A DNA stretch of 64,000 nucleotides, from the NCBI RefSeq assembly GCF_023913735.1, contig NZ_JAMXBH010000005.1, forward strand, positions 62,001 to 126,000, read 5' to 3'. Every line of letters begins with the position of its first letter. Position 1 is the first letter of the stretch. The position numbers were made by a program, and so were the translations under genes. The notes beneath the pieces are model-generated. The model was not told where the DNA came from. It saw only the letters and a program-made list of their open reading frames with translations, and made no database searches. Of this stretch, positions 4,011 through 39,008 are shown piece by piece. Source of the DNA: Pseudarthrobacter raffinosi. Lineage in GTDB: Bacteria > Actinomycetota > Actinomycetes > Actinomycetales > Micrococcaceae.

Positions 4011-4673
4011 CTAGCTCTCACAGGCAACGCCGTCCTTGTCCCGGTCAAGCGCCGCCCGGTAGCCGGCCTGCCCGGCAAAGAGCGGTGCTGCCCCGGCAGC
4101 CTTGGCCTCGGCACAGCTGCCGAAGTAGGCCGCTGCCGGTGCCGGGGCTGGTGCCTGGACTACGGGTGCTGGCTTTACGACCGCCTGCTGGGCAGCCTGC
4201 TGTGCGGCTGCCTCGGCTGCTTTCTGGGCTGCAACCTGCTGCGCGGCTGCCTGATCTGCCGCAGCTTTGTCCGCCACAACCTTTGCTGCAGCAGCCGCCT
4301 CTGCTGCAGCCTTGTCAGCTGCGGCTTTATCAGCGGCGGCCTTTTCCGCCGCAGCCTTTTCAAGGTTCTTGACGCCGAGGTGAACGGTGGAGCCCTTTGC
4401 CACCTGTGCGCCTTCGGTTGGGTCTTGGGACGTCACCTGCCAGTTCTTCTTTACGATGATGGACTTGCCATCGGCAGTGTCCGCAGCTTCGACCTTGAAC
4501 CCGAGATCTTCCAGTTGCTCCGTGGCTTTGTCCAGAGTCAGGCTCAGCACCCCTGGAACCGTGACAGCATCTGCAACCACTGCAACAGCGGTTGACGTTG
4601 ATGACGCCTGCTTACCACTGCATCCCGTCAGCATGAGGCCGGTCAGCACAATTAATGTCAGTGTCTTCTTCAT
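4011..4673 (-). CDS. PASTA-domain lipoprotein with C-terminal excalibur Ca-binding domain
   Basis: 220-residue lipoprotein. The signal peptide ends in a lipobox (LMLTGC, Cys18), so it should be anchored to the outer face of the membrane. Residues about 35-102 form a PASTA-like domain (VTVPGVLSLTLDKATEQLEDLG...VTSQDPTEGAQV), a fold known to bind peptidoglycan or beta-lactams in other proteins. A long Lys/Ala helix with AADKAAADKAAAE repeats (about 105-165) acts as a spacer, then a Pro/Ala linker leads to an excalibur domain ending DRDKDGVACES. A good ribosome-binding site (AAGGGGGA) precedes the ATG. The same C-terminal domain ends the nuclease encoded 49 bp upstream, so the two proteins are probably targeted alike. 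Confidence 0.85.
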   Translation of the reverse strand: MKKTLTLIVLTGLMLTGCSGKQASSTSTAVAVVADAVTVPGVLSLTLDKATEQLEDLGFKVEAADTADGKSIIVKKNWQVTSQDPTEGAQVAKGSTVHLGVKNLEKAAAEKAAADKAAADKAAAEAAAAAKVVADKAAADQAAAQQVAAQKAAEAAAQQAAQQAVVKPAPVVQAPAPAPAAAYFGSCAEAKAAGAAPLFAGQAGYRAALDRDKDGVACES

Positions 4674-29352: not shown

Positions 29353-30030
29353 CTAGGCTTTGAAATCCGAGATGAGTTTCGCACTCCGTGCCCGGATTGG
29401 GGCTAGATGTTCGCCAATGCCGCTGAGCACAATGCCGGCGTCGGCCGCCTGGAGCGCGGATTCCGGGATGGACAGCCCGTCTGCGCGGAGGCTGATTAGG
29501 GTCTCCACGAGTCGAAAGGCCAGATCTCCGTTCTGGCCGGTGGCGGTCCAGTCGTTCTCGGGGAGTGCTGCCCCCAGGCGTTGGTACAGTCCCCGGAGTT
29601 CCCGTCTGTCTTTAGTGAAGCTGTGGAACCGTTCGCTGCGTGATTCCGGGAGGTTGTAGAGCACGCCGACGTTCCAGCGGGCATTGCACAGTTGGGTTCC
29701 GTCAAACAACGCGACGGCGTGGAGCCGGGCACCAGCCGATACGGGGTCGCGATCGCCGTCGGCCCCCGCGCAGATGCCGCGGGCAAAACCGAGGCCGCTG
29801 GATACTGTGCCCGCGAGCAGCACCTCAAGAATGTCGTCCTTGGTCTTGAAGTGGTGGTACAGCGAGGACTGGCGGATCCCCACGGCCTCCGCGATGGACC
29901 GCGTCGACGTGGTGGCATAGCCCTGGATGGTAAAGAGTTCGGCGGCGGCGTCGAGGATTTCTTCACGTGCGGTGGCTCCCGGGCGGGAGGGTTGCTGATT
30001 ACGGGGGCGTCCGGGGCCGGTTGTTGTCAC
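29353..30030 (-). CDS. TetR-family regulator of the guanidine operon (inferred)
   Basis: 225 residues from GTG 30030; ATG at 30060 and 30117 are in-frame alternatives. N-terminal HTH: EEILDAAAELFTIQGYATTS, TRSIAEAVGIRQSSLYHHFK, then a helical ligand-binding domain with VSAGARLHAVALFDGTQLCN. It is divergent from the permease gene that opens the guanidine/allophanate operon, and the space between holds a large imperfect inverted repeat. Regulation of that operon, with guanidine or an intermediate as effector, is inference from position. Confidence 0.82.
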   Translation of the reverse strand: MTTTGPGRPRNQQPSRPGATAREEILDAAAELFTIQGYATTSTRSIAEAVGIRQSSLYHHFKTKDDILEVLLAGTVSSGLGFARGICAGADGDRDPVSAGARLHAVALFDGTQLCNARWNVGVLYNLPESRSERFHSFTKDRRELRGLYQRLGAALPENDWTATGQNGDLAFRLVETLISLRADGLSIPESALQAADAGIVLSGIGEHLAPIRARSAKLISDFKA

Positions 30031-30109
30031 TGCATTATTCTTGCACTCCGGGCGCACCATCTGCTGCCGCCTCGGTGGCGGTGAGGAGCCCGAAATGTGG
30101 TGGAAATGA

Positions 30110-30181
30110 ACCGTCAATCAACTCTTTACAACGGGGAAACGAGTTCGGGATCGCGGCCTGTAAAACTATCAATTGACCGGT
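30110..30181. promoter_or_regulatory. imperfect inverted repeat, candidate TetR operator region
   Basis: Left arm 30110-30130 (ACCGTCAATCA...TTTACA) and right arm 30159-30181 (TGTAAA...TCAATTGACCGGT) are imperfect reverse complements around a 28-base centre; the right arm contains the dyad TCAATTGA. It lies between the tetR start and the permease start. No guanidine-I, -II or -III riboswitch motif is seen here. Confidence 0.55.
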
Positions 30182-30259
30182 ATTCCGCAGCGCCGGCACC
30201 ACAGCGCTGCTTGTGCCGGAAAGCTTTGTCCCAACGCCGTCCCAGCCCCGGAGATCCCG

Positions 30260-31777
30260 ATGACATCCACTGTTCTTCCCAGATCCGCGCAGGCGGATGA
30301 TGCAGACCTTACGTCTCTTGGCTACCAGCCGTCCCTGCACCGCAAGCTCGGCCGCTATGCTTCATTCGCGGCAGGCTTCTCCTTCGTGTCCATCCTGACC
30401 ACCATCTTCCAGCTCTTCGCGTTCGGCTACTCCTTTGCCGGACCGGCCTTTTTCTGGACCTGGCCAGTGGTCCTGCTCGGCCAGCTTCTTGTGGCCCTGA
30501 ATTTTGCAGAGCTTGCCGCCCGCTACCCGCTCTCCGGCGCCGTGTATCAGTGGGCGCGGCGTGTGGGCGGCGAAACGGTTGGCTGGTTTGCCGGCTGGTT
30601 CATGGCGCTGGCTCAGGTTGTCACAGCTGCCGCTGCGGCCATTGCCCTGCAGGTGGTCCTTCCCCAGCTCTGGGGCGGCTTTCAGCTGGTTGGTGGCGAC
30701 GCCGCACTGAACACTGTCTCGGGTGCCGCGAACGCCGCGGTCCTGGGCGCCATTCTGCTGGTGGTCACCACGGTGATCAACTCCATGGGAGTCAGGCTGA
30801 TGGCCCACGTGAACTCCGTCGGCGTGACGTGCGAGATCGTCGGCGTCATAGCGGTGGTCCTCGCCCTCATCACGGCCGCCCAGCGCGGACCGGACGTCGT
30901 GCTGGACACCGTCGTCCTGCAGGGCTCCGATCTTGGCGCTGTAGGCGCGTTCATGGTTTCGGGCCTGATGGCCGCCTATGTCATGGTGGGCTTCAACTCG
31001 GCCGGGGAACTCTCCGAAGAGACAAAGGACCCTCGCCGGACCGCACCCCGCACCATCCTCTCGGCCCTGATCATCTCCGGCATCGGCGGGGCGCTGATGA
31101 TCATCACCGCGCTGATGGCAGCTCCCAGCCTCGATGACGGCCGGCTCGCCACCGAGGGCCTTCCCTATGTGTTAACTGCCGTCCTCGGGACCTTCTGGGG
31201 CAAGGTACTCCTGGTCGACGTGGCCGTGGCTATCTTCGTCTGCACGTTGGCCATTCAGACGGCCGGCTCGCGGCTGGTGTTCTCCATGGCCCGAGACGGC
31301 AAGCTTCCCGGCTCGGCACTGCTTTCGGCCGTCCATACTACGCGCGGCACGCCGATGTGGCCCTCCATTGCCATCGGCGCACTGGCTGTCGGCGTTCTGG
31401 CGATCAATGTAGGCAATGCGGCGCTGTTCACCACGCTCAGCAGCGTTTGCATCGTGATGGTCTATCTGGCCTACCTCCTGGTCACCGTGCCGCAGCTCCT
31501 CAACCGCCTCCGCGGCGACTGGGACCGGGTCGGCGAGACCATGCCGGGGGGGTTGTTTTCGCTGGGGCGGTGGGGTCTGCCGATCAATATCCTCGCCGTG
31601 CTGTACGGGGCAGTGATGGTGGTCAACCTCGCCTGGCCACGACCCGAGGTCTACGACCCCTCCGGAGAAAACGGAATCCTCCTCTACTCGGCTCCGCTGA
31701 TGGTGGGCGTAGTGCTGCTCCTCGGTGTGTGGGTCCGACGCTCCAGCGCCCGGTCGGCCGCACGCTCGGAAGCCTGA
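30260..31777 (+). CDS. APC-family permease of the guanidine operon
   Basis: 505 residues, about 12 transmembrane helices. APC superfamily, amino acid/polyamine/choline type: SFAGPAFFWTWPVVLLGQLL, ELAARYPLSGAVYQWARRVG, and VGFNSAGELSEETKDPRRTA in the helix 6-7 loop. ATG 30260 follows GGAG. First gene of the operon, 82 bp ahead of the DUF1989 pair, so it probably imports the pathway substrate (guanidine or a guanidino compound) rather than an amino acid; this is contextual. Other guanidine clusters use ABC or other importers. Confidence 0.85.
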   Translation: MTSTVLPRSAQADDADLTSLGYQPSLHRKLGRYASFAAGFSFVSILTTIFQLFAFGYSFAGPAFFWTWPVVLLGQLLVALNFAELAARYPLSGAVYQWARRVGGETVGWFAGWFMALAQVVTAAAAAIALQVVLPQLWGGFQLVGGDAALNTVSGAANAAVLGAILLVVTTVINSMGVRLMAHVNSVGVTCEIVGVIAVVLALITAAQRGPDVVLDTVVLQGSDLGAVGAFMVSGLMAAYVMVGFNSAGELSEETKDPRRTAPRTILSALIISGIGGALMIITALMAAPSLDDGRLATEGLPYVLTAVLGTFWGKVLLVDVAVAIFVCTLAIQTAGSRLVFSMARDGKLPGSALLSAVHTTRGTPMWPSIAIGALAVGVLAINVGNAALFTTLSSVCIVMVYLAYLLVTVPQLLNRLRGDWDRVGETMPGGLFSLGRWGLPINILAVLYGAVMVVNLAWPRPEVYDPSGENGILLYSAPLMVGVVLLLGVWVRRSSARSAARSEA

Positions 31778-31859
31778 CCACACAGCAGGACTGCAACGCG
31801 CGGTTGCAACATCGGATTGTTACACCACCCCCTGCCACGCCAACACCCCCAGGATTGAC

Positions 31860-32735
31860 ATGACATTGACCACTGAAGCACCAGCCACCGCCACCACCGC
31901 CGGAGCCCGCGCCCACGCCCGGGAGCAGCATGGAAGCGCCGCGGACACCATGCGGCACATCCCGGCCATGTCCGCCCCGGAGCGGCTCACCGCCGACCTG
32001 CCGGACAGTGCCAAGGAGCATCTGAGCTGGGCAGAGTCCGTGGCCTTTGGTCGCTACACCGCACTGACGCTGGCCCGGGGGTCCCGGATCCGGCTCACAG
32101 ACACCAAGGGTGATGCCTGCGTCCATGTCCTGCTCTACCGGACCGGGGCCCTGCACGAGCGGCTCAACGTCGCAGACACCGTCAAGGTTCCGTGGCAGGC
32201 GTACCCCACCGCAGGACACCCGCTGCTCTCCGACGCAGGCCGGCTGATGGCCACCATCGTGGCTGACACCTCCGCCAGCCACGATGCCCTGACAGGTGCC
32301 ACCACCCTAGTCGGAAACACCACCCGCTACGGAGCCGGAACCGCCCACAGCAGCTCGCCGGCCGGGCGGGAACTGCTCACCCTTGGTGCGCTGAAGCAGG
32401 GGCTGGGCGTACGCGACGTGGCGCCATCAATCTCGCTGTTCAAGGGGATCCGGGTGGATCCGGACGGCGGCATCCGGTTCACCGGAGGTGCCGGTCCCGG
32501 GGCGGCCGTCGACATCCTGCTGCAGATGGATGCGGTACTACTCCTGGCTAACACGGCCCATCCACTTGATCCGAGGCCCGCTTTTACCGGAACCGCCGTG
32601 GATGTCCTCGCCTGGCACGCCCCCGAAGACCTGGACCTGCTCGCCGCGGGCCATCTTGTTGGGCCGCTCATGCCCGAACACCGCCAGGCCCTGAACAACA
32701 CCGAACACGACCTCACGGCAAGGAACGCACGATGA
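31860..32735 (+). CDS. cgdA: carboxyguanidine deiminase subunit (DUF1989, UAAP1 type)
   Basis: 291 residues of the DUF1989 family, first of a pair long called urea carboxylase-associated proteins 1 and 2. Related pairs were shown to be the two subunits of carboxyguanidine deiminase, which converts carboxyguanidine to allophanate and ammonia. Family segments: ARGSRIRLTDTKGDACVHVL, LVGNTTRYGAGT, LGVRDVAPSISLFKGIRVDP, and TAHPLDPRPAFTGTAVDVLA which marks the UAAP1 type. The N-terminus has about 55 poorly conserved residues. Stop overlaps the next start by 4 bp. Which subunit is called A or B is assigned here by operon order. Confidence 0.83.
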   Translation: MTLTTEAPATATTAGARAHAREQHGSAADTMRHIPAMSAPERLTADLPDSAKEHLSWAESVAFGRYTALTLARGSRIRLTDTKGDACVHVLLYRTGALHERLNVADTVKVPWQAYPTAGHPLLSDAGRLMATIVADTSASHDALTGATTLVGNTTRYGAGTAHSSSPAGRELLTLGALKQGLGVRDVAPSISLFKGIRVDPDGGIRFTGGAGPGAAVDILLQMDAVLLLANTAHPLDPRPAFTGTAVDVLAWHAPEDLDLLAAGHLVGPLMPEHRQALNNTEHDLTARNAR

Positions 32736-33415
32736 ACACCGCCACCGAAACCCGGGCCCCCGTCAACGCAACCGTTAGCCAGACAGCGCTCGTGGCCGGC
32801 ACCGTCATCCTGGACGAATACGTGGAAGCGCGCGGGCCCTGGTCCGCCGTCATTGCCGCCGGCGACGTCCTGACCATTGTGGACCTGGAAGGCAACCAGG
32901 CAGTGGACTGCCTGCTGTACGCCGCCGAGGACACGTCGGTGAGGTACTCAGCCGCCGTCACCATCGCCGCGCAGCGCTCCATCGTGCTGACCACCGGCTC
33001 CGTGCTCCGCTCCGATACCGGCGCCCCGCTGATGACGGTTATGGCTGACGAAGTCGGCGTCCACGACACCATCGGCGGCGCCTGCTCCCAGGAATCCAAC
33101 ACCCTCCGCTATGGCCAGCACACCCGCGAGCAGCACGCCTGCGTCGAGAACTTCCTGATCGAGGGTTCCCGCTGGGGGCTGGACAAGCGCGACCTCGTCT
33201 CGAACATTAACTGGTTCATGAATGTCCCGGTTGACCCGGACGGTGCCCTCGGCATCGTGGACGGCCTCTCCGCCCGGGGCAAACGCGTGGCCCTTCGGGC
33301 GGACATCGACACTCTGGTTCTGGTCTCTAACTGCCCGCAGATCAACAACCCGTGCAACGGCTTCAACCCCACCCCCGTCCGTATGATCGTCACCCGGCCG
33401 GAGGCTGCCCTGTGA
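32732..33415 (+). CDS. cgdB: carboxyguanidine deiminase subunit (DUF1989, UAAP2 type)
   Basis: 227 residues, the second DUF1989 subunit. Typical UAAP2 segments: TIVDLEGNQAVDCLLYAAED, GGACSQESNTLRYGQHTREQ, RWGLDKRDLVSNINWFMNVP, and LVSNCPQINNPCNGFNPTPV with conserved Cys residues that could bind metal. Overlaps its neighbours by 4 bp on both sides, consistent with stoichiometric translation of the heteromeric deiminase with the carboxylase. Confidence 0.85.
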   Translation: MNTATETRAPVNATVSQTALVAGTVILDEYVEARGPWSAVIAAGDVLTIVDLEGNQAVDCLLYAAEDTSVRYSAAVTIAAQRSIVLTTGSVLRSDTGAPLMTVMADEVGVHDTIGGACSQESNTLRYGQHTREQHACVENFLIEGSRWGLDKRDLVSNINWFMNVPVDPDGALGIVDGLSARGKRVALRADIDTLVLVSNCPQINNPCNGFNPTPVRMIVTRPEAAL

Positions 33416-36400
33416 ACCGCTTCGACACCCTGCTCATTGCCAACCGCGGGGAAATCGCGTGCCGCATCATCGAATCCGCGCGGAAGATCGGCCTGCGCAC
33501 GGTGGCCGTGTACTCCGAAGCGGACCGCGGCGCCCGCCACGTCCGGCTCGCCGATGAGGCCGTGCTCTTGGGCCCGGCACCGGCCAAGGAATCGTACCTG
33601 CGCGTCGAGGCGCTGCTGTCGGCCGCTGCGGCAACCGGGGCGGGAGCCATCCACCCCGGCTACGGCTTCCTCTCCGAGGATGCCGGCTTCGCCGAGGCAG
33701 TCGAGGCAGCCGGGCTGGTCTTCGTCGGTCCCACCCCGGAGCAGCTCAGAATCTTCGGCACCAAGCACACGGCACGGGATGCCGCCCGCGCTGCCGGCGT
33801 CCCGATGATCGCCGGCTCCGGCCTCCTCGCAGGCGTGGACGAGGCCGTACTGGCAGCCCGGGACATCGGCTTCCCGCTGATGCTCAAGGCCACCGGCGGC
33901 GGCGGCGGAATCGGGATGACCGTCTGCCGCACCGAGGACGAACTCACCGAGAGCTACCCCCGCGTCGCGCGGCTGGCGGATGCAAGCTTCAGCACGGCCG
34001 GCGTCTTCGCCGAGCGGTACGTCGAGCAGGCACGGCACGTGGAAGTGCAGATCTTCGGCGACGGCGAAGGCAGGGTTGTGAGCCTCGGGGACAGGGACTG
34101 CTCGCTCCAGCGCCGGCACCAGAAAGTCGTGGAAGAGGCACCCGCCCCGGACCTTCCCGAATCCCTCCGCGACGAACTGCACCGCAGTTCGCGGGCGCTC
34201 TGCGCATCTCTGGACTATCGCTCGGCCGGGACCGTGGAATTCGTCTATGACCCGGTCCGCGAGCACGCCTCGTTCCTCGAAGTCAACGCCCGGCTTCAGG
34301 TGGAGCATCCCGTCACCGAAGCCATTACGGGTGTGGACCTGGTCGAGTGGATGCTCCGCCTTGCCCAAGGCGGCACCGAAGCAAACTCGGTGCTGGGCGG
34401 CCGGCCGGACAGCATTCCCGTGACCGGCTACGCCGTGGAAGCCCGCCTTTATGCCGAAGATCCGGCCCGCAACTTCCAGCCCAGTTCAGGGACCGTGACA
34501 AACGCCGTCTACCCCGCAGCCGACGGCGTGCGCGTGGACGCATGGGTGGAAACGGGCAGTGAGGTATCCACCAACTACGACCCCCTCCTTGCCAAGATCA
34601 TCACCACAGGCGCCGACCGGCACCAGGCCTTCGACAGGCTCGGTGATGCGCTGAAGAACACCCGGATCGACGGCATCGAAACCAACCTCGGAATGCTCCG
34701 CGCAGTAACCGGACTGGACGCGGTCCGGAGCGCGGAACATTTCACTGGAACCCTGGATGAGCTGGGTGACCCGGAACCCCGGATCACCGTGGAAAGGCCT
34801 GGGCTGCAGACTTCGGTCCAGGACTGGCCCGGACGGGTGGGCCTGTGGCAGGTCGGTGTCCCGCCCAGCGGTCCTATGGACGACCTCTCTTTCCGGCTCG
34901 GCAACGAGGCGCTGGGCAACGCGGAGGGCGCGCCCGGGCTTGAGTTCACCATGACCGGCCCCTGCCTGCGCTTCAGCCACAGCACCACCGTGTGCGTCAC
35001 CGGCGCGGACGTGGTGGCTACCGTGGACGGTACCGAGATTTCCGCTTGGGAACCAGTGACGGTGCCCGCTGGAGGCACGCTTGACATCGGCACGGCCGAA
35101 GGATCTGGCCTTCGCGGATACATCCTGTTCCAGGGAGGGCTTGACGTGCCCCGGTATCTCGGCAGCGCCTCAACGTTCACCCTGGGCCAGTTCGGCGGCC
35201 ACGGCGGGCGTGTACTTCGCGCCGGCGATGTCCTGAGGGCAGCGACAGTCGACGGCGACGACGCTCCGGCCGTTGCTTTTGGCGGGTCGGGACTGGCCGG
35301 CAGAGTCCCCTTGGACAGCCGGCCTGCGCTGACGTCCGAATGGGAATTGACGGTAGTCGAAGGACCGCATGGCGCGCCGGAGTTCTTCCAGCGCGAGGAC
35401 ATCGAGGACCTGTATTCGGCCAGCTATGAGGTGCACTTCAACTCTGCCCGGACCGGTGTGCGCCTGATCGGCCCTAAACCCCGATGGGCGCGGGAAGATG
35501 GCGGCGAAGCCGGGTTGCACCCCTCAAACATCCACGACACCGCCTATTCCGTGGGAGCCCTGGATTTCACTGGCGACACCCCCATTCTGCTGGGTCCGGA
35601 CGGTCCCAGCCTGGGCGGCTTCGTCTGCCCGGTCACCGTGGTGAGCGCCGACCGTTGGAAGCTGGGCCAGCTACGTCCCGGTGATACTGTGCGCTTCGTG
35701 CCAGTGGAAGCCAGCCGGGCGCCGTCGACCAAGGATCTGGGTCCCGCCCGGCAGTTGGTGCTGCCCGGCGATCACGACTGGGCATCCGGGGCGGTGTCGG
35801 CCCCCGGTCTCCGTCGAGGAGACGGCGACGACGGCGTGCTGGGACGGGTGCCCCAAGCCCCGGGCCGGCCTGCTGTCACGTATCGCCGCTCGGGGGACGA
35901 CAACCTGCTGGTTGAATATGGCGACATGGTCCTTGATCTCAGCCTGCGGGCCCGTGTGCATGCCCTGCACCAGCACATTGAAGGGCTCCGCTTGCCGGGG
36001 ATCGTTGACCTCACCCCCGGCATCCGTTCCCTGCAGATCAAGGTCGACCCTTCGGTGCTTCCGACCCCGAAGCTGTTGGGCCTGGTGCAGGAAGTCGAGG
36101 CTGCCCTGCCGGCAAGTTCAGAGCTGGTGGTGCCCAGCCGCACCGTCCGTCTTCCGCTGTCCTGGGATGACCCGGCCACGCGCGAAGCCATCCAGCGCTA
36201 CATGGCCGGTGTCCGGGATGACGCTCCCTGGTGCCCGTGGAATATCGAATTCATCAGGCGCATCAACGGCCTGGACTCTGTGGACGAGGTCTTTGACACG
36301 GTCTTCAACGCCGAATACCTGGTCCTCGGCCTTGGCGATGTCTACCTTGGCGCCCCGGTAGCTACACCGCTGGACCCCCGCCACCGTCTGGTGACCACCA

Positions 36401-37155
36401 AGTACAACCCCGCCCGGACCTGGACACCGGAAAATGCCGTGGGAATCGGCGGTGCGTACATGTGCATTTACGGGATGGAAGGCCCTGGTGGATACCAGTT
36501 CGTGGGCCGTACCACCCAAGTGTGGTCCCGTTACGCCGATTCCGCGCCGTTCGAGGCCGGTTCGCCCTGGCTGCTGCGGTTCTTTGACCGCATCTCCTGG
36601 TACCCGGTCAGCCCCGAAGAACTGTTGGACCTGCGGGCCGACATGGCCGCGGGCCGGGGCCACGGAGTGGAGATCGAGGAGGGCACCTTCTCCTTGGCGG
36701 ACCATGAGGACTTCCTTGCCCGGAACAGCGACTCGATCGAGGTGTTCCGCGCGAAGCAGGCGGCAGCGTTCACCGTCGAACGCCAAGCGTGGGCCGACGC
36801 TGGTGAGTTTGACCGCGCCGACGCAGCAGCCGCCGTTATTCCGATCGCCGAAGAGCTGGTGGTTCCCGAGGGAGGAACGCTGGTTGCCGCGCCTTTCGCC
36901 GCGAGCGTGTGGAAGGTGGATGTGGCTCCCGGTGACCGGGTCGCCAAAGACCAGCCGCTGGTTTCGCTGGAGGCCATGAAAATGGAAACGGTGTTGGTTG
37001 CCCCGTGCGACGGCGTGGTCCAGCAGGTCCTGCCTGTGGCAGGTTCCCAGGTGGTGCAAGGCGAGGCCCTCGTGGTCATTGCACCACCGGCGGACCAGAA
37101 CGCAACCGGGCACTCCGACGTGGTTAGCGACGAACTGGAAGAGGCTGCAGCATGA
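33412..37155 (+). CDS. guanidine carboxylase (urea carboxylase family, biotin-dependent)
   Basis: 1247 residues, GTG start inside the preceding stop. Residues 1-450: biotin carboxylase with LLIANRGEIACRIIESARKI, ATP-grasp loop KATGGGGGIGMTV, and LEVNARLQVEHPVTEAITGV. Residues about 460-1100: the two KipA/KipI-like carboxyltransferase domains of urea carboxylase (LQTSVQDWPGRVGLWQVGVP; GYQFVGRTTQVWSRY). C-terminus: biotinyl domain, EAMKMETVL with Lys1190 as the biotin site. The family was named for urea; those accompanied by the DUF1989 pair prefer guanidine, which is the reason for this call. Product is carboxyguanidine. Confidence 0.85.
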   Translation: MNRFDTLLIANRGEIACRIIESARKIGLRTVAVYSEADRGARHVRLADEAVLLGPAPAKESYLRVEALLSAAAATGAGAIHPGYGFLSEDAGFAEAVEAAGLVFVGPTPEQLRIFGTKHTARDAARAAGVPMIAGSGLLAGVDEAVLAARDIGFPLMLKATGGGGGIGMTVCRTEDELTESYPRVARLADASFSTAGVFAERYVEQARHVEVQIFGDGEGRVVSLGDRDCSLQRRHQKVVEEAPAPDLPESLRDELHRSSRALCASLDYRSAGTVEFVYDPVREHASFLEVNARLQVEHPVTEAITGVDLVEWMLRLAQGGTEANSVLGGRPDSIPVTGYAVEARLYAEDPARNFQPSSGTVTNAVYPAADGVRVDAWVETGSEVSTNYDPLLAKIITTGADRHQAFDRLGDALKNTRIDGIETNLGMLRAVTGLDAVRSAEHFTGTLDELGDPEPRITVERPGLQTSVQDWPGRVGLWQVGVPPSGPMDDLSFRLGNEALGNAEGAPGLEFTMTGPCLRFSHSTTVCVTGADVVATVDGTEISAWEPVTVPAGGTLDIGTAEGSGLRGYILFQGGLDVPRYLGSASTFTLGQFGGHGGRVLRAGDVLRAATVDGDDAPAVAFGGSGLAGRVPLDSRPALTSEWELTVVEGPHGAPEFFQREDIEDLYSASYEVHFNSARTGVRLIGPKPRWAREDGGEAGLHPSNIHDTAYSVGALDFTGDTPILLGPDGPSLGGFVCPVTVVSADRWKLGQLRPGDTVRFVPVEASRAPSTKDLGPARQLVLPGDHDWASGAVSAPGLRRGDGDDGVLGRVPQAPGRPAVTYRRSGDDNLLVEYGDMVLDLSLRARVHALHQHIEGLRLPGIVDLTPGIRSLQIKVDPSVLPTPKLLGLVQEVEAALPASSELVVPSRTVRLPLSWDDPATREAIQRYMAGVRDDAPWCPWNIEFIRRINGLDSVDEVFDTVFNAEYLVLGLGDVYLGAPVATPLDPRHRLVTTKYNPARTWTPENAVGIGGAYMCIYGMEGPGGYQFVGRTTQVWSRYADSAPFEAGSPWLLRFFDRISWYPVSPEELLDLRADMAAGRGHGVEIEEGTFSLADHEDFLARNSDSIEVFRAKQAAAFTVERQAWADAGEFDRADAAAAVIPIAEELVVPEGGTLVAAPFAASVWKVDVAPGDRVAKDQPLVSLEAMKMETVLVAPCDGVVQQVLPVAGSQVVQGEALVVIAPPADQNATGHSDVVSDELEEAAA

Positions 37156-39008
37156 GCACCGTACCCGTAAGCCGATGCGCCACCGAGCGTGTGCGAGCAG
37201 CACTGGCCGCCATCGACGCCGTCGACAGGCCGGAAATCTGGATTGCGCTGCGCCCGGCGGATCAACTTCTGGCCGAGGCCGGCCGTATCGACACTGCAGT
37301 GGCCGCCGGCGCGGACCTCCCTCTGGCCGGAATGCTCCTTGCCGTGAAGAACAACGTTGACGTGGCGGGGATCAGCACCACGGCGGCATGCCCCGGGTTC
37401 GCCTACATGCCGGAGCAGGACGCCGAGGCCGTAGCCCGGCTGCGGGCGGCCGGGGCCGTGGTTCTCGGCGCCACCAACCTGGACCAGTTCGCCACCGGGC
37501 TGGTAGGGACGCGAAGCCCGCACGGAGCCGTCCGCGATTCCCGCCGACCCGACCATATTTCCGGCGGTTCCAGTTCAGGCTCCGCCGTCGCAGTGGCCCT
37601 GGGGCTCGCCGATGTTGCGATCGGCACGGACACCGCCGGCTCGGGACGGGTACCCGCCGGACTTCAGGGGATTGTGGGCATCAAGGCCACACTCAACGTG
37701 GTTTCCACCGCCGGAGTAGTTCCGGCATGCCGCTCGTGGGACGCCGTCACTGTGTTCGCCCGGGACCTGGCGACAGCCGAACTGGCCATGGGAATCATGG
37801 CAGGGAACGCACGAACCTGGCCGTCGGACGCCAAGCTTGCCGCACCGGCCCGGCCACGAGTTGCCTATCCATCGGCCTTGCCGGAACTTCCGCAAGATTG
37901 GGCTGATGAATTCGGCCGCCAGATTGCCAGGCTTCAGGCTTCGGGAGTTGATGCGGAGCCCATCGAGTTCGACGACTTCCTTGAGGGCGCGCGTCTGCTT
38001 TATGACGGCGGTCTGGTGGCTGAGCGCTATGCCGCCGTCGGAGCATTTGTTGCCTCCGCTACCGCTGACTCCGGCAATTCTGACGGGTTGGATCCCACCG
38101 TGGCCGGAATTGTCCTCCGGGCTGGCGAGGTCCCTGCCCACCGGTACGTTTCGGACACCGGCAGGCTCAACGACCTCAAGAGCCAGGCAATGGCGCATTT
38201 GCGGGGCTTCGATGCACTGATCGTCCCCACAGCACCTTTCCACCCGAGCCTCTCGGACGTCGCCCGCGACCCTGTCGGAGTGAACTCGAAGATGGGGACT
38301 TACACCAATTTCTGCAATCTCTTCGACCTGTGCGCTGTCGCCATACCGGCCGGGGAATTGGACGGCTTCCAGTTCGGGCTCACCGTTGTCGGGCGAACGT
38401 TCGAGGATGCGGTTGCCGCTGACATCGCCCGCAGAATCGAAACAACGCCTGCCCCACCGGCCCAGTTCGCGGCCGGAGCCGTCCAGGCGCCCCCGGCCGG
38501 CCCCCGGAAACCATGGCCGGTGCGGGCGGGCGCCTCCGCTGAGCCGCTCGTCGTGGTTGGGGCACATCGACGAGGGCAGCCCCTGTCCCACGAACTCGAA
38601 ACCTTAGGTGCCGCCTGGGACGGGGATGTGCGTACGGCGGCCTGCTACCGCATGGTCGCACTGGACACCCAGCCACCGAAACCCGGGGTGTACCGGTCAG
38701 AGAACGGGGCGGAGCTCGTGGCAGAGCGCTGGCTGCTGCCGGAAGCGGCGCTGGGACGGTTCCTGGCCGCGCTGCCCGAGCCAATGCTCCTGGGTTCCGT
38801 TCGTCTGGCAGACGGTACTCGCGCTGTCGGCTTCGCCTGCGACGCTGTGGCTGCCTCCACTGGCCAGGACATTACAAGCTACGGCGACTGGATCGCTGCA
38901 ATGGCGGCCGGATTGGAGGGCCCAGGGCAAGACGCCCGCGGTAGCCTCCGGGACTCGCTCCTGACCGGGTTCACCCGGGGTCGCGAGTCAAACACCACAC
39001 GCGGCTAG
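37152..39008 (+). CDS. atzF: allophanate hydrolase
   Basis: 618 residues, full-length AtzF type. N-terminal amidase-signature domain with the Ser-cisSer-Lys triad: Lys66 in AVKNNVDVAG, GGSSSGSAVAVALG (residues 138-151), nucleophile Ser164 in GTDTAGSGRVPAG. C-terminal domain (about 455-600) with GAHRRGQPLSHELETLGAAW, containing the His region that in AtzF handles the second step (N-carboxycarbamate decarboxylation). Converts allophanate to two ammonia and two CO2. Its 4-bp overlap with the carboxylase makes it the terminal enzyme of the operon. Confidence 0.9.
   Translation: MSTVPVSRCATERVRAALAAIDAVDRPEIWIALRPADQLLAEAGRIDTAVAAGADLPLAGMLLAVKNNVDVAGISTTAACPGFAYMPEQDAEAVARLRAAGAVVLGATNLDQFATGLVGTRSPHGAVRDSRRPDHISGGSSSGSAVAVALGLADVAIGTDTAGSGRVPAGLQGIVGIKATLNVVSTAGVVPACRSWDAVTVFARDLATAELAMGIMAGNARTWPSDAKLAAPARPRVAYPSALPELPQDWADEFGRQIARLQASGVDAEPIEFDDFLEGARLLYDGGLVAERYAAVGAFVASATADSGNSDGLDPTVAGIVLRAGEVPAHRYVSDTGRLNDLKSQAMAHLRGFDALIVPTAPFHPSLSDVARDPVGVNSKMGTYTNFCNLFDLCAVAIPAGELDGFQFGLTVVGRTFEDAVAADIARRIETTPAPPAQFAAGAVQAPPAGPRKPWPVRAGASAEPLVVVGAHRRGQPLSHELETLGAAWDGDVRTAACYRMVALDTQPPKPGVYRSENGAELVAERWLLPEAALGRFLAALPEPMLLGSVRLADGTRAVGFACDAVAASTGQDITSYGDWIAAMAAGLEGPGQDARGSLRDSLLTGFTRGRESNTTRG

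Follow-up and report, generated by a model that had tools for sequence, protein, structure and literature searches.

Predicted AmtR and GlnR control of a guanidine carboxylase operon in Pseudarthrobacter raffinosi

We found that a guanidine carboxylase operon of Pseudarthrobacter raffinosi is divergent to a gene for the repressor AmtR, and that the region between them contains a predicted AmtR operator and a predicted GlnR box. The operon consists of five genes in one direction and occupies positions 30260-39008 of the 64-kb stretch of DNA that was analyzed (the window). Sequence analysis identifies both regulators, the enzymes, the operator and the box, and shows no known riboswitch. Taken as a whole, it is reasonably likely that AmtR represses the operon, that GlnR activates it, and that AmtR is released by a compound of the guanidine pathway.

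The pairing of AmtR with such operons and the binding of GlnR have been published, so the arrangement is already known; AmtR, its pairing with the operon and GlnR control are in print for what is called a urea operon (PMC4222082). New here, as far as the literature searched goes, are the correction of the operon from urea to guanidine, the exclusive association of AmtR with carboxylases that have Asp at position 1330, and the proposal that guanidine is the missing effector of AmtR.

Results

The operon encodes enzymes of the guanidine carboxylase pathway

The genes of the operon, and the codon of one diagnostic residue, are as follows.

30260-31777, + strand: APC permease, probable guanidine importer (TIGR03428, 855 bits, over cut-off)
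31860-32735, + strand: UAAP1, carboxyguanidine deiminase subunit (TIGR03425, 261 bits, over cut-off; PF09347)
32732-33415, + strand: UAAP2, carboxyguanidine deiminase subunit (TIGR03424, 325 bits, over cut-off; PF09347)
33412-37155, + strand: guanidine carboxylase, family name urea carboxylase (TIGR02712, 1773 bits, over cut-off; Asp at K. lactis positions 1330 and 1584)
35563-35565, + strand: codon of Asp718, aligned to K. lactis 1330, which is Asn in urea carboxylase (alignment)
37152-39008, + strand: allophanate hydrolase (TIGR02713, 604 bits, and PRK08186, 693 bits, both over cut-off)

Asp at K. lactis positions 1330 and 1584 separates guanidine carboxylase from urea carboxylase (PMC11410670). 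The carboxylase in the window has both (Asp718 and Asp976, respectively). The subunits of carboxyguanidine deiminase, CgdA and CgdB, were defined from the PF09347 family (PMC11410670). Both are encoded in the operon (TIGR03424 and TIGR03425), together with the allophanate hydrolase (TIGR02713). A first-pass annotation of the window had described a guanidine operon with a divergent TetR gene. Curated family and Pfam matches bear out this gene arrangement. Because CgdAB is beside a carboxylase with Asp1330 and Asp1584, "guanidine operon" is also right as far as sequence can tell, and the substrate would be guanidine rather than urea.

The P. raffinosi genome also contains urease, which offers urea a different route. 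At G000:C33:109596-116063, split urea carboxylase-like pieces (carboxyltransferase parts, biotin carboxylase and biotin carrier) immediately precede the urease alpha gene.

The divergent TetR gene encodes AmtR

29353-30030, - strand: amtR, TetR-family repressor AmtR, 225 amino acids from the likely GTG start at 30030 (PDB 5e57 match and predicted-structure comparison)

The mechanically called reading frame extends to a TTG at 30117 (254 amino acids). Conservation points to the GTG at 30030 as the likely start: upstream of it the reading phase is not maintained among relatives, with 25, 13 and 1 of 39 falling in the three phases. The protein matched M. smegmatis AmtR (PDB 5e57) over the whole chain with 181.9 bits. 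The entries for C. glutamicum AmtR scored 98-114 bits and the next TetR protein 47. The predicted structure (pLDDT 85) gave a Z score of 24.4 to 5e57 (rmsd 2.2, 203 residues), 20.8-22.3 to four C. glutamicum AmtR entries and 16.6 to the best other TetR protein. By these matches and the model, the divergent TetR protein is AmtR, a known family. We rejected an identity as a drug-efflux TetR; the NCBIfam matches covered the DNA-binding part only and were below every cut-off.

Within the Arthrobacter group, permease and amtR were divergent wherever the permease was found, with 29/30 and 25/26 loci in two overlapping sets and the two others cut by a contig end (L030 and L055, which had no permease match, were left out). 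The same order was found in 7/7 Williamsia loci. AmtR was present in 48 of 121 genomes of the same genus and absent from the other 73 (E≤1e-40), and loci were retrieved for 30 of the 48. One record, titled Kitasatospora arboriphila (L078), has an AmtR locus that shares 95% identity with that of Williamsia muralis (L073) across 1500 bases, probably from contamination or a wrong label.

The leader contains a conserved AmtR operator

30162-30183, + strand: predicted AmtR operator AAAACTATCAATTGACCGGTAT, core CTATCA-AT-TGACCG at 30166-30179 (matrix from other taxa, conservation)

We built a symmetric operator matrix from 21 loci outside the Arthrobacter group, many of which have the site as a perfect palindrome, for example ATTTCTGTCGCGCGACAGAAAT. 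Scanning the 64 kb with this matrix gave position 30162 as the best place, with a score of 22.1; the next place scored 3.7. The matrix found the same block in 41/41 aligned intergenic sequences (scores 18.6-22.1). In these 41 distinct sequences, window included, 18 of the 22 positions were invariant and two more were conserved at 0.98. The core pattern had a single match in the window (0.06 expected). The AmtR box of C. glutamicum is tttCTATN6AtAGat/aA (PMC2723105). The site in the window is of this CTAT-N6-ATAG type, with CTAT an exact fit in the left half and a degenerate right half, ACCG. The operator may overlap the -10/+1 region of the operon promoter; a search by consensus found no sigma-70-like promoter in 29900-30400.

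Sites of this kind were also seen away from the operon. The strict pattern occurs at three places in the P. raffinosi genome: the operon site, C50:44972 and C55:23471. The second is a perfect AmtR-like palindrome, CTATCATGTGATAG, within an ORF (C50:44972-44985; L169 1501), and the third is near an ORF end. Six mycobacterial loci (L075-L077, L162, L163 and L167) have a solitary amtR with two AmtR sites approximately 95 bp apart (75 in L163) toward a divergent ABC-transporter ATPase gene, which is of the oligopeptide type by Pfam in L075 and was judged by the look of the sequence in the other loci. This transporter may be another target of AmtR and may import a guanidino compound. In two genomes, G206 (L138 13294) and G260 (L146 13513), the permease gene stands apart as a unit and has a strong AmtR site to itself, which suggests that it is in the same regulon.

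A GlnR box precedes the operator

30125-30140, + strand: predicted GlnR box TTTAC-AACGGG-GAAAC, starting 37 bp before the AmtR operator (consensus fit, conservation)
30081-30096, + strand: possible second GlnR box farther upstream, GTGAG-n6-GAAAT (poorer consensus fit; spaced in 11-bp phase with the main box)

The GlnR box consensus is gTnAc-n6-GaAAc (PMC10704036). All ten letters of TTTAC-n6-GAAAC were invariant in 41 sequences, window included. The pattern alone was found 5 times in the window, not above chance (3.06 expected), so the box call rests on conservation. In the upstream candidate, GTGAG and GAAA were invariant in the 41 sequences.

Similar boxes were found in other taxa. In 19 of 25 promoters of guanidine-type loci (described below), the 110 bp preceding the AmtR site contained a GlnR-like match, compared to 0.075 expected from single-base shuffles. 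Three of these matches (L129, L148 and L158) coincide with a second AmtR site, leaving 16/25, and the other 6/25 promoters had no GlnR-like box. The offset between the two elements was a constant 50 in Streptomyces-like loci and 37 in the window.

The P. raffinosi genome encodes a GlnR orthologue (L171) in addition to the promoter box. It matched PDB 8hih, which we take to be a GlnR complex, with 250 bits over the whole protein, and 4o1h, named GlnR, with 93 bits over the first domain. In M. smegmatis, a GlnR ChIP peak and a gel shift were reported at MSMEG_2184 (PMC3662644). The first-pass annotation had the operon controlled by the TetR protein. AmtR control of such operons is in print (PMC4222082), and to that extent the claim stands; GlnR is a second regulator in the circuit.

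The large inverted repeat is not conserved

The first-pass annotation had also proposed a large imperfect inverted repeat in the leader. The arms are present (30110-30130 and 30159-30181, 28 bases between them) with a complementarity score of 8. In exactly this geometry, a score of 8 was reached at 37 of 9129 sampled window positions. In a free search with arms of the same size, it was reached in 52/60 random 229-bp tiles; this coarser search gave 7 for the tile of the leader itself. The arms scored 1-5 across 40 aligned relatives, below the leader in every one. We therefore rejected the repeat as an operator, since it is no better than chance in the free search and is not conserved. The left arm ends in the GlnR box and the right arm covers the AmtR operator. 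The conserved units are these two separate elements touched by the arms, not one repeat.

A guanidine-III riboswitch precedes probable exporter genes

That the leader has no guanidine riboswitch, as first annotated, held in covariance-model searches. Rfam at gathering scores gave no matches in the whole 64 kb, and at E≤10 in 29950-30400 it gave three (E 7.7-8.6), none from a guanidine family. It might still be argued that an unrecognized riboswitch or attenuator senses guanidine in the approximately 76 nt between operator and start, where there are a few conserved patches (GCTGC, CCGG). However, length and sequence are both variable in the second half of the leader across 41 relatives, and the only terminator-like site in 29900-30400 is inside amtR, with none between 30031 and 30259. 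We regard a leader RNA sensor as highly improbable.

A guanidine-III riboswitch is present elsewhere in the P. raffinosi genome (G000:C49:133840-133905; L161 2341-2406, minus strand). It directly precedes two adjacent small-multidrug-resistance (SMR) genes, which are probably a paired guanidine exporter. P. raffinosi has RNA sensing at exporters and none seen at the catabolic operon.

AmtR is associated with guanidine-type carboxylases

In a class sample of 296 actinobacterial genomes drawn evenly from the class, 33 had a TIGR02712 match (E≤1e-200), 28 had AmtR (E≤1e-20) and 24 had a guanidine-I riboswitch match (E≤0.001), 11 of these over the cut-off. We compared 34 carboxylase loci, including the window and two from one genome (G150). 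The residue at K. lactis 1330 was Asp in 25 loci, Asn in 7 and Met in 2.

We found an AmtR site (matrix score of at least 15 upstream) at 25/25 Asp1330 loci, compared to 0/7 Asn1330 loci (best score 8.1) and neither of the two riboswitch-headed Met1330 loci. The site is close to the first recognized gene at the Asp loci, except in L133, where it is next to amtR, 1.6 kb before UAAP1. Eighteen of the 25 Asp loci had trained the operator matrix. Seven had not (the window, L128, L140, L144, L147, L149 and L160), and these include both loci with amtR elsewhere in the genome. The amtR gene itself was within 23/25 Asp loci and 0/9 non-Asp loci; G268 and G301, the genomes of the two remaining Asp loci, have it at another place. 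The association of amtR with Asp1330 loci gave a Fisher p of 1e-6, ignoring descent (11 genera vs 3, with two genera having both types). G150 has both carboxylase types, with amtR beside the Asp copy only. UAAP1 and UAAP2 were both beside 25/25 Asp loci and 0/7 Asn loci, one of which is cut by a contig end.

The association was also seen from the regulator. Among 201 genomes taken as Mycobacteriaceae, 131 had UAAP2 (E≤1e-40), 141 had AmtR and 128 had both. Of the 13 AmtR genomes without UAAP2, eight belong to one genus, with AmtRs closest to that of C. glutamicum. In the class sample, 3/28 AmtR genomes had no Asp-type carboxylase. These comparisons indicate that AmtR goes with guanidine-type, not urea-type, carboxylases.

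The literature names the operon otherwise. In Arthrobacter Rue61a it was interpreted as a urea pathway (PMC3534580), and that of M. smegmatis was likewise described as urea degradation, with guanidine not among the compounds named as tested in the available parts of the report (PMC4222082). On this reading, AmtR would answer to urea metabolism. However, the operon in P. raffinosi, which has its own urease, combines Asp1330 with CgdAB, whereas 7/7 urea-type loci have Asn and lack both CgdAB and an AmtR site. In addition, binding of M. smegmatis AmtR was unaffected by urea and amino acids, and no effector was found in that 2013 study (PMC4222082). A urea operon is thus very unlikely here.

The two Met loci have a guanidine-I riboswitch just upstream. 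L130 has two UAAP-type genes and L137 has one recognized stretch; in L137 the riboswitch (4402-4508) is directly before a permease 57% identical to that of the window. With Met at 1330, these carboxylases satisfy neither rule, Asp for guanidine or Asn for urea. In L137 the riboswitch occupies the place that the AmtR site has in the window. RNA and AmtR thus appear to replace one another at homologous operons, although the carboxylases at the riboswitch loci are not of the Asp type. Published guanidine-I riboswitch operons share the importer, CgdAB, carboxylase and allophanate hydrolase with the operon in the window and have the RNA sensor in place of AmtR (PMC12186494, PMC11410670).

Four residues of the AmtR effector domain are conserved with the operon

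The effector domain of AmtR in the window contains Asp139, Glu158, Tyr178 and Glu205 (254-residue numbering; 110, 129, 149 and 176 of the model), all in predicted helices. These were kept in 78, 77 (one Asp), 78 and 78, respectively, of 78 readable rows, C. glutamicum excluded. The window protein is counted twice in these rows, and L036, L054 and L067 were left out for gaps at the tested columns. The same four residues were kept in 21/21 further AmtRs (one Asp at 158; L192 left out). In contrast, 8/8 Corynebacterium-like AmtRs from genomes without UAAP2 had Glu or Gln at 139, Val, Ile or Thr at 158, Phe at 178 and Leu or Gln at 205. AmtR in the window matches the operon-linked proteins at these positions, not the Corynebacterium-like ones. 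At 139 most of the changes replace Asp by Glu, and a single clade accounts for the loss of the four-residue set. An exception to this rule could be C. efficiens, for which AmtR and the operon are both listed (PMC4222082, Table 3).

C. glutamicum AmtR shares family, fold and the CTAT half-site with AmtR in the window (box, PMC2723105). It differs in being a global nitrogen repressor under a PII protein (PMC2723105) and in having Glu, Ile, Phe and Met at 139, 158, 178 and 205. It is released by the PII protein (PMC4617892), and since the fold is the same, AmtR in P. raffinosi might likewise read the nitrogen state through GlnK and not a molecule of the guanidine pathway. The residue differences argue against this. 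So does M. smegmatis, in which nitrogen control of the operon was intact in an amtR mutant and lost in a glnR mutant, and microarrays gave no further AmtR targets (PMC4222082). We therefore think GlnK control of this AmtR unlikely. Loss of the four residues appears to go with the AmtR form that answers to the PII protein.

The invariant carboxylates and tyrosine would suit a small cation such as guanidinium and may form its pocket. Catabolic repressors often respond to a pathway intermediate, and the effector might instead be carboxyguanidine or allophanate made in the cell. The acidic set with a tyrosine suits a cation better than the anion allophanate, which weakly disfavors such an effector; we give it a small but real chance.

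Discussion

Based on these results we suggest the following mechanism. When nitrogen is plentiful, AmtR would occupy 30162-30183 at the promoter and keep the operon repressed, with GlnR inactive. Under nitrogen limitation, GlnR would bind 30125-30140 and recruit polymerase. Full expression would require that a compound of the guanidine pathway, most likely guanidine imported by the permease, releases AmtR. With AmtR repression and GlnR activation at one promoter, the operon would therefore respond both to low nitrogen and to a small pathway molecule.

The roles of the two regulators are taken from M. smegmatis. Its operon, msmeg_2184-2189, has the same kinds of genes as that in the window, AmtR repression and GlnR control (PMC4222082, PMC3662644). 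Deletion of amtR raised the transcripts of msmeg_2184, 2187 and 2189, AmtR binds that promoter, and it represses both the operon and its own gene (PMC4222082). By analogy, AmtR and GlnR very probably play the same roles in P. raffinosi. The amtR gene is elsewhere in the genome in M. smegmatis; in Arthrobacter aurescens (AAur_0186-0192), as in the window, it is co-localized with the operon. A. aurescens is one of ten Actinobacteria in which amtR has been linked with this operon type (PMC4222082).

The comparisons above make it likely that a compound of the guanidine pathway releases AmtR. That this compound is guanidine itself is a tentative proposal from comparative evidence, plausible but slightly doubtful. 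Among the papers listed in the literature searched, which has most subscription journals outside its reach, none linked AmtR with guanidine, and no report of an AmtR effector after the 2013 study was found. In its available parts, a 2025 review of guanidine biology names no guanidine-sensing regulatory protein and expects guanidine-binding transcription factors as future findings (PMC12186494).

More tentatively still, AmtR outside Corynebacterium may be a guanidine-responsive repressor, the first guanidine-binding transcription factor, that replaces the guanidine-I riboswitch at carboxylase operons of Actinomycetes while riboswitches keep the exporters. The AmtR of C. glutamicum would then be a derived form in which the cation pocket (Asp139, Glu158, Tyr178 and Glu205) was swapped for GlnK control.

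If the link to guanidine is true, two gaps would close together, the missing effector of AmtR and the missing protein sensor of guanidine. The "urea" operon of M. smegmatis and many other Actinomycetes would gain its true substrate. Protein and RNA sensors of one ligand could be compared at homologous operons, and AmtR would provide a guanidine-inducible protein switch.
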